A DNA stretch of 22,173 bases, from positions 1-22,173 of the IMG/VR virus record IMGVR_UViG_3300049491_000392. The stretch is one strand, 5' to 3'. A program made the translations under genes and the position numbers. The notes under the pieces are model-generated. The model was not told where the DNA came from, did not search any database, and saw only the letters and a list, made by a program, of their open reading frames with translations. Positions 3,509 to 22,158 of the stretch are shown here, one piece after another; positions within the stretch are counted from its first letter, which is position 1; each line of letters begins with the position of its first letter. Source of the stretch: a virus.

Positions 3509-3796
3509 CTAGCCGCCGGTGAACTTGTCGATCAGGGCGCCGAAGGTGCCGCCGGCCGCTGCCAGGGCGCCCATGACGACGAAGCGCCACTTCTCCAAGG
3601 CGCGGAGCCTGCCCTCGATGTCGCTGCCGGAGGTAGTGGAGTGCTTCTCCAGGACGGCAATGCGGGCATCATGGTCGATGCTCTCGAGCTTGCGAATGCG
3701 GGACTCGTGGTCGGCTCCTTGTGAGAGGACGCCATCGAGCTTGGTTTCGATACGTGCGAGCGTGACTACTACCGCCTCGGTTACGTTCTCTGGCAT
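3509..3796 (-). CDS. Small coiled-coil, single-TM membrane protein; holin or XhlA-like candidate
   Basis: 95 residues. Residues 5-65 are amphipathic with heptad spacing (VTLARIETKLDGVL; SRIRKLESIDHDARIAVLEK), ending in RLRALEKW. Residues about 70-88 form one membrane segment (FVVMGALAAAGGTFGALI), with the short C-tail DKFTGG. This plan, a soluble coiled coil plus one C-terminal helix, is that of XhlA-type proteins and some phage holin-like proteins. Its start ATG shares one base with the stop of the S74 fibre gene (TGATG), so translation is probably coupled, and the amidase gene begins 8 bases after its stop. Position directly before the endolysin supports a lysis role: membrane permeabilisation or anchoring of a partner. 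A structural tail role is not excluded. One TM segment is fewer than in most class I and II holins. Confidence 0.65.
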   Translation of the reverse strand: MPENVTEAVVVTLARIETKLDGVLSQGADHESRIRKLESIDHDARIAVLEKHSTTSGSDIEGRLRALEKWRFVVMGALAAAGGTFGALIDKFTGG

Positions 3797-5049
3797 CAGA
3801 CCCCCAGCTCCCCTTCGATGAGGGAGACGCGAGTCGACATGTCGTCGACCAGACCGGTCAGGTGTTCGATGTCCGCCTGCTGACGCTTGACCACGTCGAG
3901 CAGAGCGACGCTGAGCAGGTCGTACCGGATGCTGTCGATCTCGCCCTCGTGGCGGATGACGATCTCCGGGACCAGCTCGTTGACTTCCTCTGCGATCAAG
4001 CCGTACTCGTCGTTCGGGGTGTCGTCGCCCTTGCGGTCGTAGACCCTGGGCTCAAGCGCCAGCACCTTGTCGGGGTCGACCGAGTATGGCCGGACGTTCT
4101 GCTTGTACCTGATGCTCGAGGTGTTCCGGCAGAAGTCGTGGTTGCCGTCGACCCACACCGCATACCAGCTGGAGCCGGCGGGCGTGTAGGAGTGGGGGCG
4201 GTCGGAGCCATTGGCCTTGTCGACCCCCCTGGTGACGTTCGCCCCGGTGTGGACGTGGGCGGGCAGGGCGTGTGTGTGGCTTGTCGCCGCGTAGCTGTGG
4301 GTGTGCGCGTCGGGCGGGAACGAGCTGGGCTTGCCGGTGATGCTCACCCAGTCGTGCACGTGCGAAGACGGTGTAAACGAGCTGGGCTTGCCGGTGATGG
4401 CGTTCCAGTCGTGCCCGTGCGTCGAGGGGGTGAAGGTGCTGGGCTTGTCCGTGATGGCAGCCCAGGCGGCCGAGCCGCCGAGACTGACCCAGGAGCTGCC
4501 GTCGAACCACTCCCACCCACTCGAAGAGGTGTTGTAGCCGAGCTGGCTCCTGCGGGGGGCGGTCGGCTTGGTGTCGTTGCTCCAGATGCCCACCCGCGAG
4601 CCGACGAAGGGGCGGTAGTCCGCGATGAGGGCGTTCGAGATCGCCACCGCACTGGGGGCGACGGTGACGGTGGCCAACGGCAGCTCATAGAGCCCCGTAT
4701 CGGTTTGCGTCAGCGCCGGAGCGCCCGAGCCGGGGGTGCCGGTCAGGACGAGGGGGGCGATCGAGTTGGTCGACGGATCCATTCGTAGGACGACGCGGTC
4801 GATGCGAGTCGACGGGCTGGCGGCGGCGATAGTCACGGTCTGGTCCGCGGTCATCTGGATGGCGTGGCCACGAAGCACCGCGACGCCGGCCGCGACAGTG
4901 AGGACCATGCTCGAGCCGGTGCCGGTCACCTTGAAGCCAGCGCCACCGAAGGCGTCGGCCACGCCGGAGTCCTGTAGCTCGCGGAATAGCTTGCTGTACT
5001 GCGACTCCGTGACGGTCACGCCGTCGAACGGATAGGCGAAGATTGCCAC
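3796..5049 (-). CDS. Tail fibre protein with HxH repeats and C-terminal peptidase S74 chaperone
   Basis: 417 residues, GTG start with AGGAGG seven bases upstream. Residues 1-150 resemble the N-terminal attachment part of actinophage fibres (YPFDGVTVTESQYSKLF, then a beta-rich block). Residues 196-252 hold three 19-residue repeats of the form W..IT.KPS.F.P..H.HDW, followed by a His-rich stretch; HxH pairs occur at 211/213, 230/232, 249/251, 258/260 and 265/267. In T4 gp37 such pairs coordinate iron along a trimeric needle. The C-terminal 110 residues are an S74 intramolecular chaperone: RNTSSIRYKQNVRPY gives a Ser311/Lys316 dyad at the expected spacing, then VLALEPRVYDRK, YGLIAEEVNELVPEIV and a terminal coiled coil. 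In this family the chaperone trimerises the fibre and then cuts itself off, here likely next to S311 or S312. The gene lies 29 bases after the Gp37-like gene. Confidence 0.9.
   Translation of the reverse strand: MAIFAYPFDGVTVTESQYSKLFRELQDSGVADAFGGAGFKVTGTGSSMVLTVAAGVAVLRGHAIQMTADQTVTIAAASPSTRIDRVVLRMDPSTNSIAPLVLTGTPGSGAPALTQTDTGLYELPLATVTVAPSAVAISNALIADYRPFVGSRVGIWSNDTKPTAPRRSQLGYNTSSSGWEWFDGSSWVSLGGSAAWAAITDKPSTFTPSTHGHDWNAITGKPSSFTPSSHVHDWVSITGKPSSFPPDAHTHSYAATSHTHALPAHVHTGANVTRGVDKANGSDRPHSYTPAGSSWYAVWVDGNHDFCRNTSSIRYKQNVRPYSVDPDKVLALEPRVYDRKGDDTPNDEYGLIAEEVNELVPEIVIRHEGEIDSIRYDLLSVALLDVVKRQQADIEHLTGLVDDMSTRVSLIEGELGV
4294..4464 (-). repeat. Three 57-bp in-frame tandem repeats in the tail fibre gene
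   Basis: Three consecutive 57-base units encode residues 196-214, 215-233 and 234-252 of the fibre. Each carries the Lys-Pro-Ser turn and an H-x-H pair. The copies have diverged at the DNA level but keep the protein pattern, so they look maintained as structural repeats. Copy number could change by recombination and alter fibre length. Confidence 0.85.
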
Positions 5050-11250: not shown

Positions 11251-11963
11251 CTACCTCCGAGAGAGCATGGCGTGGAGAGAGGCGACGGTAGCCGGAGCCT
11301 TGCTCTCCCCCTTGGGGCGTGACTGGGGGCGAGGCCAGGCGGGCAGCTTTGGAGGCTTGCCCTTCCATTGGCCGGTGGCTCGGGTGTTCAGATTGACCGC
11401 CTCGTAGAGGTCGGCCATGAGATGCCTGCTGGCATCCCAACCGTAGTGATCTCGTCCACCCGAGGCGAGGGCGACGGTCAGCGAGCTGTCAGGCAGCCCC
11501 TGCACGAGCCTGATGACAAGTGCCGGCGACGGGCCCCTACCCTCGATGACGTCAATCAGGTCGACGCCGTAGTACCGCTTGAGGTCGGGATAGAGGCCCT
11601 CGCCGAGATCGTCAATCAGCTGGCAGAGGCTGAGGCTTCCCCCAGCTCGGTCACCTTGCCGTAGCGCTCGAAGACCTCCATCATCGAGGCGAGGTCGCCC
11701 TCGAGAGCGTCGATGAGCTTGGTGGCGTGGGCCTCGCGCAGGATGACCGTGCGCAGGATCTCGCCAAGGAGCGTCTCCTCATCCTCCTCGCGGTCGTCCG
11801 CATTGAAGGCGTCCTGGAACTTCTTGAGCTGCTCACGGCGCTTGCCCGGAAGGCGAAGCGGATTGACCAGCGAGACGGTCGTGCCGTCCACGTCGATGTC
11901 GAGCGAGCCGTACTTGGCCTCTGCGGCCGAGCGGATGTCGTCGAGGGTGAAACTGTTGGCCAT
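11251..11963 (-). CDS. Tail assembly chaperone G-T fusion made by -1 ribosomal frameshift
   Basis: Reading gpG to the G-run at 11643-11639 and then moving back one base opens a frame with no stop down to 11251. I translated it codon by codon. It continues as SLSLCQLIDDLGEGLYPDL, KRYYGVDLIDVIEGRGPSP, ALVIRLVQGLPDSSLTVALA and ends ADLYEAVNLNTRATGQWKGK plus a basic Pro-rich tail. This is the recognisable T part of siphovirus tail chaperones. The fusion is about 237 residues: about 109 from gpG and 128 from the new frame. In lambda the equivalent G and GT proteins bind the tape measure and recruit tail-tube subunits, and are absent from the finished virion. The T part alone has no well-placed start near its beginning, which supports production by frameshift. 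The tape measure gene follows after 5 bases. Confidence 0.9.
11616..11963 (-). CDS. Tail assembly chaperone G
   Basis: 115 residues in the unshifted frame, ATG at 11963 with AGGAGG six bases upstream. The frame is open to 12023, but the added codons are His/Arg-rich and lie beside an intergenic hairpin, so the inner start is preferred. The sequence fits actinophage tail assembly chaperones: SFTLDDIRSAAEAKYGSLDI, then VSLVNPLRLPGKRREQLKKF, an acidic stretch (DREEDEETL) and a helical end (LASMMEVFERYGKVTELGE). It sits between the major tail protein and the tape measure, the fixed place of this gene in siphoviruses. Ribosomes that do not shift stop at 11616 and release this short form, normally in excess over the fusion. 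Confidence 0.92.
   Translation of the reverse strand: MANSFTLDDIRSAAEAKYGSLDIDVDGTTVSLVNPLRLPGKRREQLKKFQDAFNADDREEDEETLLGEILRTVILREAHATKLIDALEGDLASMMEVFERYGKVTELGEASASAS
11637..11643 (-). other. Slippery site for -1 frameshift (G GGG GAA)
   Basis: The minus strand reads CTG GGG GAA GCC in the gpG frame, giving the heptamer GGGGGAA. Slipping one base back moves exactly into the T frame. The P-site Gly codon re-pairs perfectly (GGG to GGG), but the A-site Glu codon would face GGA, so the fit to the X-XXY-YYZ rule is partial. It lies about 20 bases before the gpG stop codon, a normal distance. No clear pseudoknot was found by eye. Confidence 0.75.
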
Positions 11964-11999
11964 GGCGGACCTCCTAGTGTGGTGGCGGAATGGGTGGTG

Positions 12000-12041
12000 C
12001 CTCTCCTCGCACGGGTCCGCCACCCACAGAGCGAGGAGAGG
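12000..12041 (-). promoter_or_regulatory. Strong hairpin after the major tail gene (attenuator or mRNA-stabilising)
   Basis: Arms CCTCTCCTCGC and GCGAGGAGAGG pair perfectly over 11 bases (12000-12010 with 12031-12041). The 20-base loop can form a second small stem (GGGT with ACCC). It starts 27 bases after the major tail stop and ends 36 bases before the tail chaperone start. No T-run follows on the minus strand, so it is not a classical intrinsic terminator. It may attenuate transcription or protect the upstream mRNA 3' end, lowering chaperone and tape measure output relative to tail-tube protein. Confidence 0.6.
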
Positions 12042-17193: not shown

Positions 17194-18606
17194 CTAAGTG
17201 ATGGTGCGCGTGATGGTTGATCCAGACCTGGAGTCGCGGATCGGCGGAGCGGAACGACTGAGGGCGTCCGCCAGGGTGGCGACAGGGTCCTCGTCCGCGA
17301 GGCGCTCCCAGTCTTCGATCTCCGTCTGCGTGACGCCGGGCACCCGCGGCCACAGGCCACGTGCCGGAATCTCGAGCGACTCACGCAGCTTGCCGAGAGC
17401 GTCGGCCGTCTGCGCAATGGAGCGCTGCTCCATGTCGCGCCAGATGACCTCGCCCTGATAGTCGTCAGCTGAGGACTCGCCGTCCAGCTCGCCGGCAATC
17501 CGGAAGACTCGCTCCCAGCTCTCGCCGAAGCCCACTCGGAACTCCTGTCCCTTGCGTGCATTGGCCGTCTCGGCGGCGTCGAGCGCCTCGGCCGAGAGGT
17601 TCGCGATCTGGCCGAGAAGGTAGTGAGGGGGGGTCTGTGACACGGCCGCCAGGTGGCGAATACTCATGTCGATCGAGGCGATGAAGCCCTCGAGCGGGCT
17701 CTCGTCCAGAGTGCCGAACTTGACGTTCTCGTCCTCGGCGAACAGGAACCGCGCGGCGTTGTGGTTGATCGGGACGGGCTTAGGGTTGCCGAACTCGTCC
17801 AGCACCAGCTCGCCGGTGTCATGGTCGCGCTGGAGGGGCGGAGCCATGCCGCTGACGTAGCGCACCTTCATGCTTGTGTAGGTCTGCGCAACCAGCAGGT
17901 CGAAGACCGTCTGGTTGATGCGGTCCTGGAGCCGCTTCATGGGCTCGATCACGCCAACGGTGCGACCTTCGAGGTCGACCGAGGCGGCGAAGCGAGTGAC
18001 CGGGCAGGTGCTGTTCCCGTGCGCAACTGCATTGGTCATGCGCACGTTGGCGTCGGAGTGCACGCCGTCGAGCGTCAGGTCGTAGCGCTTCGTCGCGTCC
18101 CACAGGATGGCCGTGCCCAGCTCGTCATCGGTGGGGAAGGTGACGATGGTCAGGGCCGCGAGGGGCTCGATGTCGTTCGCCGGGTCCTGGAACACGGCTG
18201 CGGTGAGCAGGGCGCTCAGGCCGCGAGTGCGGACACCCTCGACGCGCTTCTCGGTGACAGTGAAGCTGTGGCCGAACTTGAGCGCTCCACGGTGGACGGC
18301 GAGCTGGCGAGCATCCATGCCAGAGCGCTGCCAGTGCCGCCACTGGGGCGACTCATTCTTGGTGGCTCCAGGCTTCGGTCGGAAGCCGTCGATGTAGAGC
18401 GTCTGTGCCGGCGTATCGACCAGCAGGGGCATCCAGTTGGAGACCGCGCGACTGGCGAGCAGCTTGTACTCCGTGTCGGCATTGTCGGGCACGTACGGCC
18501 CGACCTGCTTACCGCGGTGGTACTCGTCGATGCCAAGCAGCCGGGGACGGTCTTTGTGCAGAATGCCGAGCAACTGGCGCGCAAGGGCCGTTGGGCTTGG
18601 GGTCAC
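17194..18606 (-). CDS. Portal protein (SPP1 gp6-like)
   Basis: 470 residues, GTG start with AGGGAG five bases upstream, 20 bases after the terminase stop. The N-terminal part (YHRGKQVGPYVPDNADTEYK, LLASRAVSNWMPLLVDTPAQ, TLYIDGFRPKPG) is the standard opening of actinophage portals in the Phage_prot_Gp6 group. The wing region follows (GALKFGHSFTVTEKRVEGVR; ALTIVTFPTDDELGTAILWD). The clip and stem helices include RLQDRINQTVFDLLVAQTYT and AAVSQTPPHYLLGQIANLSA, with the loop QTPPHYLL typical of the family. The C-terminal crown has ETEIEDWERLADEDPVATLA-like helices. Twelve copies would form the DNA channel at one capsid vertex and dock the terminase. Confidence 0.93.
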   Translation of the reverse strand: MTPSPTALARQLLGILHKDRPRLLGIDEYHRGKQVGPYVPDNADTEYKLLASRAVSNWMPLLVDTPAQTLYIDGFRPKPGATKNESPQWRHWQRSGMDARQLAVHRGALKFGHSFTVTEKRVEGVRTRGLSALLTAAVFQDPANDIEPLAALTIVTFPTDDELGTAILWDATKRYDLTLDGVHSDANVRMTNAVAHGNSTCPVTRFAASVDLEGRTVGVIEPMKRLQDRINQTVFDLLVAQTYTSMKVRYVSGMAPPLQRDHDTGELVLDEFGNPKPVPINHNAARFLFAEDENVKFGTLDESPLEGFIASIDMSIRHLAAVSQTPPHYLLGQIANLSAEALDAAETANARKGQEFRVGFGESWERVFRIAGELDGESSADDYQGEVIWRDMEQRSIAQTADALGKLRESLEIPARGLWPRVPGVTQTEIEDWERLADEDPVATLADALSRSAPPIRDSRSGSTITRTIT

Positions 18607-18626: not shown

Positions 18627-20273
18627 TTACGTGAAGTAGCCGCGACCGGTGCGCTGCTTGCGCTCAGGGACACGGGTGCGGACGTCGTGCAGCGCCTGAT
18701 GCGCGAGCATGAGGGCGGCGTAGAGGTCGACCTTGCGAGGCGACTCGCGGGACTCCTTGCCGAAGCTGACGCCGTAGTTGTTTACACGGCGCCGGGCGTT
18801 GAGGATGTGCCGGCGGAGTCGACGGTCGCCGTTGTTGCGGACCTTGCCGTCGAGGATGGACTGGAGCAGTCGCTCGTGGGCCAGCGTGCTGCGCTGGAGC
18901 GAAGACCGCATATCCCAAGCGATGGCGTGGGAGACGCTGGCCTTGGCGTCCAACTGTCCGCGGTACTGCTCCGCCCAGTCATCGATGTAGCTCTCCCAGA
19001 GAGCAACGTCGGCGTAGAAGGCGCGCACGTTGTAGAGCCGGAACGCCTCGTGTACCGCTCCGTCGACCTTGGCCTTGTTGACCTGCCATCCGACGCCGGC
19101 CGGCCCCTCGGGGCAAGCCTCATGGAGCAGCACGAACGCCGTCTGGTCGGAGACCCGAATGGCCACCAGGCCGGTGTCGTCGTCCGTCTTGCCGCCGTCG
19201 AAGCCCATGACGATCTCATCGCCGGGCTTGAGGTCGGTTTCGTCGGTGTTGTCGTCCCAGTTGGCCGTGGTGTAGAGAGCGTCCTCGTCGGCGACGATCT
19301 GATTGAGCCACATCCGCCGGCTGCGCGAGGCGGGGATGGTGACGTCCAGGACCGACATCACGATGGCGTCGACATTCAGCCACACTGCATCGCCCCGGAT
19401 CTTCGGGACGACGATGTGCAAGCCCTCGGGCGTGAGCGGCGTGGACGGATGGGCCTCGATGGAGTCGTACAGCATGCCGACATCGGCAGCTCGACCCTCG
19501 AGCACCTTCTCGTACGCTTCGCGCATGCGCTCGGCGACACTGTCTTCGCCGGGGAGGTAGGCGTTAGTGATGGCCAGGTAGCGCGAGTCCATCTTGGTGA
19601 CGTTGCCGTCGATGGTCTCATGCATCTTGTGGCCCTGATTGCCGAGCACCCAGTGATGGGTCTCGTTCAGTAGGGTGAACGTGGTCCGCTTGCCCTCGAT
19701 GGCGCGGTAGGAGCTAGTCACGGCCTCGAGCCGGACGCGGCCACCACGGGCGCGGATCAGTTCTGCGCCCTGGGCGATGTCGTAGGCGGCCTCGAACTCG
19801 CGGGAGATCAGAGCCGGCATCAGCGCCATGGTGTTGCGCGTCTGATCTTGGGAGACGGCGGCGACCTGAACCCAGGCGGAGGGATGGGCGCCGCCAATCG
19901 GGGTGCCGTTCTCATCGAAGTGTGAGAAGCGACTTGGCCCAACCAGCTCAACGAGGCACATGACTGCGCCCATCGGGTCCTTGCCCCACCCCTTTAGCCG
20001 CTGGAGGACGCCCTTGCGGTAGACGAAGCGACCCTGCCCGTCGACTGCGTACCACCAGAGGAGGAAGCGCAGCTGCTCCATGGTGAAGCGCCAGGGTTTC
20101 GGATTGTCGTCGGTACTGTCCTCGGCCCGGAGCCACTCGGAGCACCAGCCGGCTATCTGCCAGCCGAGCGTCCGCTCAGGCAGGTCCCAAGAGTCGTTTA
20201 CACGCCTCCAGGTAGGTCCGAAGAACGTAATGGGGAGGGCGTCGATCTCCGCCGGGGGAAGTGCGTCGATGAT
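18627..20273 (-). CDS. terL: Terminase large subunit; real start lies upstream of the first ATG
   Basis: The ATPase and nuclease that drives DNA into the capsid. Numbered from the in-frame ATG at 20081: Walker A-like LKGWGKDPMGA (30-40), Walker B TLLNE (136-140) and RNase H-fold acidic residues D295 (GFDGGKTD), D358 (FYADVALWE) and D452 (SPRKVDLYAALML). The frame stays open upstream to a TGA at 20279-20277. I translated this stretch as IDALPPAEIDALPITFFGPT, then WRRVNDSWDLPERTLGWQIA, then a Trp-rich run to PWRFT. This is the usual N-terminal region of actinophage terminases, so it is coding. It contains no ATG, GTG or TTG. GAGGGG at 20285-20280 lies six bases before an ATC at 20273, which I use as the provisional start (548 residues). 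Frameshift or base error are the alternatives. Confidence 0.9.
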   Translation of the reverse strand: MIDALPPAEIDALPITFFGPTWRRVNDSWDLPERTLGWQIAGWCSEWLRAEDSTDDNPKPWRFTMEQLRFLLWWYAVDGQGRFVYRKGVLQRLKGWGKDPMGAVMCLVELVGPSRFSHFDENGTPIGGAHPSAWVQVAAVSQDQTRNTMALMPALISREFEAAYDIAQGAELIRARGGRVRLEAVTSSYRAIEGKRTTFTLLNETHHWVLGNQGHKMHETIDGNVTKMDSRYLAITNAYLPGEDSVAERMREAYEKVLEGRAADVGMLYDSIEAHPSTPLTPEGLHIVVPKIRGDAVWLNVDAIVMSVLDVTIPASRSRRMWLNQIVADEDALYTTANWDDNTDETDLKPGDEIVMGFDGGKTDDDTGLVAIRVSDQTAFVLLHEACPEGPAGVGWQVNKAKVDGAVHEAFRLYNVRAFYADVALWESYIDDWAEQYRGQLDAKASVSHAIAWDMRSSLQRSTLAHERLLQSILDGKVRNNGDRRLRRHILNARRRVNNYGVSFGKESRESPRKVDLYAALMLAHQALHDVRTRVPERKQRTGRGYFT

Positions 20274-20285
20274 GCATCACCCCTC
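20268..20285 (-). promoter_or_regulatory. Ribosome binding site and unusual start region of the large terminase gene
   Basis: The minus strand carries GAGGGG (20285-20280), then TGATGC, then two ATC codons at 20273 and 20270. The ATG at 20277 is only two bases from the Shine-Dalgarno and is out of frame with the terminase: its own frame gives a 33-residue Arg/Pro-rich peptide before a stop. Spacing to the first ATC is six bases, which is near optimal. The site lies 10 bases after the small terminase stop. Confidence 0.5.
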
Positions 20286-20295
20286 GGTTGATCGA

Positions 20296-20724
20296 TCAGG
20301 CCAACAGCTCCTTGCGGTAGGACTCGATGGCGGTTACCGAGGCCGACTTGGCCCCAGTCACTGGCTCGTCCAGCTCGATCCGCACCCGGCGCCGCTGGCC
20401 CTCAGTGAGGAGCAGGTCGCCCAGGCCGGCCATGACCGTCTGCAGTAGCTGTGCGGACCGTCGGGCCTGCAACTTGTAGTTCGACAGGTCGTCGCACAGG
20501 GAGAACAGGATGGCGATGTCGCTCTGCTGGTAGAAGTCCGCCTGCCCCGACTCTTGGGCCGAGCGCCACACGAAGTCGGCGATGGGGTGCCAGGCGGGGT
20601 CGCCCTCGGGCCAGCTGACTGGCCGGGCAGTGCCCCTGGTGACAGGCACCTGCTCCTTGCCCTTCCGGGCTCGGGGGCGGGCGAGTGCGGACTCGCGCTG
20701 GGGGATGGGTCCTCGAGCGCCCAT
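20296..20724 (-). CDS. terS: Terminase small subunit
   Basis: 142 residues. The ATG at 20724 has AGGAGG five bases upstream. The frame is open to 21003, but that part is a shadow of the peptidase gene. The start MGARGPIPQRESALARPRAR is the familiar basic N-terminus of actinophage small terminases. WPEGDPAWHPIADFVWRSAQ, DFYQQSDIAILFSLCDDLSN and helical QARRSAQLLQTVMAGLGDLL make up the DNA-binding and oligomerisation helices. The C-terminal end (VRIELDEPVTGAKSASVTAI) is typical of the part that contacts the large subunit. Rings of this protein recognise the packaging site. It begins 14 bases after the NlpC/P60 gene stop. Confidence 0.9.
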   Translation of the reverse strand: MGARGPIPQRESALARPRARKGKEQVPVTRGTARPVSWPEGDPAWHPIADFVWRSAQESGQADFYQQSDIAILFSLCDDLSNYKLQARRSAQLLQTVMAGLGDLLLTEGQRRRVRIELDEPVTGAKSASVTAIESYRKELLA

Positions 20725-22053: not shown

Positions 22054-22158
22054 TATCCTCTATCTAAGTACTATAGAGACTTTATCCTCTATCTAAGTAC
22101 TATAGAGACTTTATCCTCTATCTAAGTACTATAGAGACTTTATCCTCTATCTAAGTAC
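22054..22158. repeat. Array of 29-bp direct repeats (3.6 copies), AT-rich
   Basis: Units begin at 22054, 22083, 22112 and 22141. The first three are identical over 29 bases and the fourth matches for 18 bases before diverging. There are no spacers. Each unit holds arms CTCTAT and ATAGAG around CTAAGTACT, so it is partly two-fold symmetric and resembles an operator or iteron. The unit is 31% GC in a GC-rich window. The array continues close to the window end, so flanking sequence is unknown. Confidence 0.9.

Follow-up and report, generated by a model that had tools for sequence, protein, structure and literature searches.

To our knowledge, only very few bacterial genes have a documented translation start other than ATG, GTG and TTG, infC and sigR being the cases at hand. 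In E. coli, infC starts at ATT, a codon disfavoured by IF3. The Streptomyces infC gene begins with ATC, and sigR uses GTC behind the ribosome binding site AGGAGGTG; this GTC was proven by Edman sequencing together with mutagenesis, its change to ATG raised a reporter about fourfold, an excess of IF3 lowers SigR while IF3 fidelity mutants raise it, and the annotated sigR GTG, lying inside that ribosome binding site, is the wrong start (PMC5472188). A different peculiarity is described for the terminases of phage phiHau3 and prophage StrepC.1, for which a UUA-linked translational bypassing is held to be likely (PMC5009743). Here we describe the large terminase subunit gene (TerL) of the virus record IMGVR_UViG_3300049491_000392, positions 1 to 22,173 (the whole stretch of 22,173 nucleotides is called the window), which, by strong inference from its sequence, starts at AUC.

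TerL resembles each of these systems in part. Like Streptomyces infC, it has a strong Shine-Dalgarno (SD) sequence, an ATC and then Ser/Ala codons, and no canonical start at the right place, whereas infC is a cellular gene in an autoregulatory loop and TerL, a late gene of a phage, is not known to feed back on IF3. With E. coli infC it would share a non-AUG start disfavoured by IF3, while organism, gene and autoregulation differ. Like sigR, TerL of this family has the sigR-type ribosome binding site, an in-frame GTG inside it that annotators chose, and a non-AUG codon downstream as the predicted start; one relative (L222; L numbers denote loci) even shares GTC with sigR, most others of this class having AUC, AUU or AUA (collectively AUH). 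The sigR start keeps one operon product below its partner, and we liken TerL to it, although sigR is a cellular stress regulator with an experimentally proven start and the TerL start is predicted from sequence. The phiHau3 TerL belongs to the same family and has ATC at the homologous start position; the published feature of phiHau3 and StrepC.1 is a bypass at Walker A, and the window has no such insert. Other TerL genes of the Arquatrovirinae have the same operon position and SD with a canonical codon at the same site (TTG in Likavirus, ATG in Camvirus, GTG in Omarvirus). A limited literature search found no report of such a start in a phage terminase, and in the part of PMC5009743 that was accessible we found no mention of an AUC start in phiHau3-type terminases.

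Start region of the window TerL gene

The product of 18627..20273 (minus strand) is a large terminase subunit, as identified by its match to the phrog_9 profile (E=4.8e-74), the conserved Walker A-like KGWGKDP and the homologous operon position, with the small terminase upstream and the portal gene downstream. Its closest annotated relatives by tblastn are Streptomyces phages of the Arquatrovirinae (68-70% identity), and the host of the window phage is taken to be an actinobacterium; Megablast of the TerL region against phages gave no match, and neither did a sequence search of the PDB.

On the minus strand, after the stop of the small terminase (TGA 20298-20296), the sequence runs TCGATCAACC GAGGGGTGA TGC ATC ATC GAC GCA CTT CCC CCG GCG GAG ATC GAC. 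The TerL frame is closed by a TGA at 20279-20277, the boundary already given by a first-pass annotation of the sequence, and is open from there to 18627; this TGA is itself the tail of the extended SD AGGGGTGA (20284-20277). When in-frame codons are numbered from zero at ATC 20273, ATG is first met at codon 64 (20081), GTG at codon 184 and TTG at codon 284; 64 open codons thus precede ATG 20081 without any ATG, GTG or TTG, and the coordinates in the first-pass annotation are correct. Its further landmarks also hold: GAGGGG at 20285-20280 is followed by six bases and then ATC 20273, an out-of-frame ATG at 20277 stands two bases after GAGGGG, and five Cs at 20258-20254 mark a place where a +1 step would join the frames. 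To these we add a second in-frame ATC at 20270 and an out-of-frame GTG at 20280, which shares with ATG 20277 a non-terminase frame of 34 codons that is considered a bystander. The alignment with related phage terminases that had been called for places ATC at the homologous position in relatives and shows the upstream coding conserved: L14, G20, P21, W23, W30, L32, P33, T36, L37, G38 and W39 are invariant across 15 sequences, and therefore translation begins well before ATG 20081, as had been proposed.

Relatives were collected by homology and by pattern and examined at the homologous start site, where most have an SD close to GGAGGTGA. Those 66-73% identical confine the start to a gap of one to three codons, bounded on one side by the in-frame TGA of GGTGA and on the other by conserved Ile-Asp-Ala codons. 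This TGA is in frame in the window, L090, L135/L136, L148/L308 and L191, one to three codons before conserved coding sequence, and ATC is the only near-cognate codon in all of these gaps: GGTGA TGC ATC ATC GAC GCA in the window, GGTGA CCC ATC GAC GCT in L090, GGTGA CCG ATC ATC GAC GCG in L135 and GGTGA TTC CAA ATC TCA GCC in L148. L135 and L136, from two metagenomes, both read ATC ATC GAC GCG (taken from their sequences, as the coordinates in the DNA alignment lie too far downstream). L146 (ATC) and L164 (ATA) likewise lack any in-frame ATG, GTG or TTG, and the same layout recurs in L320 and L294/L296 (ATC) and L312 (ATT), all outside the set counted below. The Ala codon after ATC GAC is GCA in the window, GCT in L090 and L161, GCC in L081 and GCG in L135, using all four third bases, and this synonymous drift therefore indicates coding from the first codon on. 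Independent genomes with ATC at the homologous position include the isolates phiHau3, GreenWeasel, BroPlease and Triumph. No ATG, GTG or TTG is thus placed to start the conserved TerL frame, and a near-cognate codon stands at normal SD spacing in a position conserved among homologues. The AUC initiation that the first-pass annotation had offered as one explanation is therefore strongly supported for the window, the start being confined between the in-frame TGA and the coding sequence of the relatives, where only ATC fits.

Start codons across related terminases

Our survey comprises 132 distinct start regions with TerL identity of at least 52%, plus the window, and uses an SD rule restricted so that Glu-Glu-Ile codons (GAGGAGATC) are not taken for an SD. 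With the window included, the start codons are ATG 41, TTG 26, GTG 20, ATC 22, ATT 6, ATA 1 and GTC 1, that is, canonical starts in 87 of the 132 regions, AUH in 28 (29 with the window) and GUC in L222, the remaining regions being unclassifiable by the SD rule. Behind the SD 8-mer, AUH lies at +3 to +7 in 29/29 cases and canonical starts at +2 to +6 in 71/72, so that the AUH spacing matches the canonical one. Of the 33 loci that have an SD-like 8-mer but lack a usable canonical start, 29 carry AUH 3-7 nt behind that 8-mer, where chance would give about 12.5% (binomial p about 2e-22, kinship ignored). In Actinorhabdospora filicis, the prophage TerL L191 (3001-4636) offers only ATC in its start region, and its frame is interrupted internally at a place other than Walker A; it is either a decayed gene or an error, and it was left out of the counts. 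In L222, the SD GGAGGTGAGTCCC is followed by GTC where its relatives have AUC or AUU, possibly a second GUC start after that of Streptomyces sigR.

The start-codon class changes at least 16 times on the TerL tree (131 rows, start columns excluded; a quick tree with long branches), and therefore the non-AUG class recurs and is not one defect; a single inherited oddity was rejected on the same count. Some sister pairs, among them L226/L210 and L174/L101, have unlike start classes and diverge mostly in their first 300-400 nt, which makes exchange of this 5' segment a likely path of the switching.

Proposed role of IF3 and competing explanations

In the mechanism we propose, the extended SD (GAGGGGUGA) would position AUC 20273 or 20270 for initiation, the initiator fMet-tRNA would be mispaired with AUC at the third position, and IF3 would reject the codon and slow initiation, while the long SD would rescue initiation despite this discrimination. 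The packaging motor would then be made far below its operon neighbours, the small terminase and the portal, and the reason may be that few motor subunits are needed per capsid, compared with the structural proteins that the operon also encodes and that are needed in many copies. We hold it highly probable that the window TerL uses this AUC start behind its extended SD, is slowed by IF3 and is made far below its neighbours. The role of IF3 is argued by analogy: TerL shares its layout with Streptomyces infC and with sigR, which IF3 represses, and we therefore take IF3 discrimination to keep TerL levels low. That weak initiation may hold terminase levels down, a suggestion already present in the first-pass annotation, is plausible and has a direct Streptomyces precedent (PMC5472188), with dosage control as its presumable purpose. 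In five lysogens carrying a prophage TerL of the AUH class (L330-L332, L335, L336), the host infC itself reads GAGGAGGATCC-ATC-AGC or a one-base variant, in the order SD (GGAGG), ATCC, ATC AGC and then the conserved N-terminus. The AUC start shared by related viruses suggests that TerL is throttled by the start-codon proofreading of the host.

Several observations weigh against this reading. The SD pairing in the window, at -12.0 kcal/mol, is weaker than in most AUH relatives (-15.7 to -21.1; L164 -11.8), all of these energies being computed with an assumed Streptomyces-type 16S tail. In 22/29 AUH loci, the window not among them, AUH stands at +5, so that the GTG inside the SD is automatically in frame, and the choice of start in these loci is less certain. 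In four insert-bearing loci that lie beyond the clade or at its margin (L295, L316, L325, L292), the SD-internal GTG is the only candidate, with no AUH behind it, and some phages may indeed start there.

The alternative that survives best concerns only the relatives with ATC at +5, where the SD-internal GTG would be the start and AUH an ordinary Ile codon. That GTG is in frame in the 22 loci, annotators of phiHau3-like phages chose it, and L222 has GTC (Val) where others have ATC or ATT. Against it, neither the window nor six other loci of the main clade could start in this way, having the TGA in frame or lacking a canonical codon; AUH persists although the two codons of the spacer change freely; and sigR carried exactly such a misannotation, its real start being GTC (PMC5472188); we regard it as improbable for the +5 loci. 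Far less credible is that ribosomes start at the out-of-frame ATG 20277 or GTG 20280 and then shift by +1 on the C-run, even though such a step joins the frames and CCC-C is a possible slip site. L090, L081 and L161 have no C-run and nevertheless carry ATC GAC GCN in the TerL frame right behind the SD, relatives do not conserve the ATG/GTG frame, ATG 20277 lies only two bases from the SD, and the conserved upstream start and slip site of a programmed +1 frameshift are absent in relatives. A sequencing or assembly error, with an extra base in the C-run or a G read as C in an ATG, is just as hard to credit: the window is a single metagenomic virus contig, but the same ATC stands in the independent genomes and isolates named above, including the two metagenomes that share ATC ATC GAC GCG. 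The TerL frame is already read upstream of the C-run, where ATC GAC GCN sits, and the run is missing in relatives that share this sequence; therefore, neither the shift nor the indel there, both raised by the first-pass annotation, is needed. Finally, a start at ATG 20081 with an untranslated upstream region, for which one can say that this is the first canonical in-frame codon, is next to inconceivable, since it would remove GPTW...LPERTLGW, conserved in every aligned relative, and no SD is apparent there at usable spacing.

Walker A inserts, the locus and implications

The Walker A codons of the window (AAG GGG TGG GGC AAG GAC CCG) lack the phiHau3-type insert after the Gly of KGWG. In phiHau3, GreenWeasel, BroPlease and Triumph, a 10-nt insert is found in these codons (GGC TTACYCC GGT AAG GAC), and further inserts read GGC TTAC GGC, GGC TTACC GGC, GGC TTAG GGC, GGC TAACCC GGT, GGT TGACCC GGC and GGC TAGAAA AGC/GGC, with the codon after Gly being UUA or any stop. 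Sites of this form, in which UUA or a stop plus a short stretch of bases separates the Gly of KGWG from a Gly-like codon and KDP, were noted at L058:971, L059:971, L073:2272, L074:2290, L112:3265 and L148:2366, and also in L168, L174-L178, L222-L226, L293, L298, L308, L312, L313, L320-L322, L326 and L327. With these, likely bypass sites are far more numerous than phiHau3 and StrepC.1 alone, and a stop codon can stand in for UUA. Inserts of this kind also occur in clearly more distant actinophage terminases (L297, L302, L292, L304, L309, L315, L324; e.g., TIRRLKGWG^KDPFLAAL), and this position is therefore a hot spot that spans TerL lineages. In L058 (phiHau3), L059 (BroPlease), L073 (GreenWeasel) and L074 (Triumph), TerL is annotated as two or three coding sequences (CDS) or as a misc_feature, apparently because of the insert, and the first piece starts at or near the SD-internal GTG.

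The insert goes strongly with the non-AUG class: in the main clade, it is present in 18 AUH and 1 GUC TerL genes and in 0/87 canonical ones. Across 10 independent pairs on well-supported branches, the changes in the two traits agreed in direction about 5.5 times and were never opposed (median p 0.03); exceptions to the link occur beyond the main clade, where L192 and L323 combine ATG with the insert. Exchange of the 5' segment may contribute to this link, and a single spreading 5' cassette as its whole cause was rejected, as the tree of the N-terminal segment, with few columns, still gives 17 and 11 changes. A tentative reading, to which we give somewhat less than even weight, is that, in a large set of actinobacterial phages, two successive gates on the packaging motor are gained and lost together, namely an IF3-disfavoured AUC/AUU/AUA/GUC start mimicking the host infC and, in many, a stall-and-hop at Walker A. 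The latter would proceed from a Gly codon through UUA or a stop and a gap of a few bases to a usually Gly-like landing codon, and as a stop can stand where UUA does, stalling, and not the bldA tRNA, would drive the hop.

The features of the TerL locus are collected in the following table.

Table 1. Coordinates of the TerL gene, its start region and its neighbours in the window
Feature	Position	Strand	Evidence
TerL CDS, 548 codons + stop, start ATC 20273 (or ATC 20270)	18627..20273	-	translation; PHROG phrog_9; tblastn
First candidate for the proposed AUC start, six bases behind GAGGGG	20271..20273	-	homologous ATC in L090, L135, L148, L146
Second in-frame ATC, spacing equally fit for initiation	20268..20270	-	aligns with the sole ATC of L090 (ATC GAC GCN)
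Extended SD GAGGGGTGA	20277..20285	-	duplex -12.0 kcal/mol, Streptomyces-type 16S 3' end
In-frame TGA ending the SD, blocks any in-frame start further upstream	20277..20279	-	sequence
Out-of-frame 34-codon open reading frame from GTG 20280 / ATG 20277, not terminase	20176..20280	-	starts not conserved in relatives
Five-C run	20254..20258	-	shift/error site of the first-pass annotation; not needed
N-terminal TerL region upstream of first ATG (20081), conserved GPTW...LPERTLGW	20079..20273	-	15-sequence alignment
Walker A codons KGWGKDP, without recoding insert	19974..19994	-	sequence
Small terminase subunit, separated by 22 nt from ATC 20273 downstream	20296..20724	-	Pfam PF25673 Terminase_7 E=1.8e-38
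Portal protein, next late-operon gene	17194..18606	-	PF05133 (SPP1_portal) E=2.4e-35; phrog_104

The small terminase is called a 'minor tail protein' in phrog_226 and some GenBank records, yet it matches Pfam Terminase_7, and the label is probably a misnaming. Elsewhere in the window, a 29-bp tandem repeat (22054-22158, 3.6 perfect copies) lies at the contig end upstream of an HNH gene, a 57-bp tandem repeat (4319-4456, 2.4 copies) lies within a predicted tail gene (3796-5049), and two short adjoining open reading frames at 11251-12023, ahead of the tape measure gene, resemble the pair of tail assembly chaperone genes, with its programmed frameshift, that is usual at this place.

One essential phage gene that switches repeatedly between canonical and AUC/AUU/AUA/GUC starts amounts to a natural experiment in which protein dose would be set by the start codon. 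It would place a late phage gene under the control of host IF3, it implies that gene callers and annotators misplace or split such terminases, and packaging itself may hinge on a translational limit to the supply of its motor.
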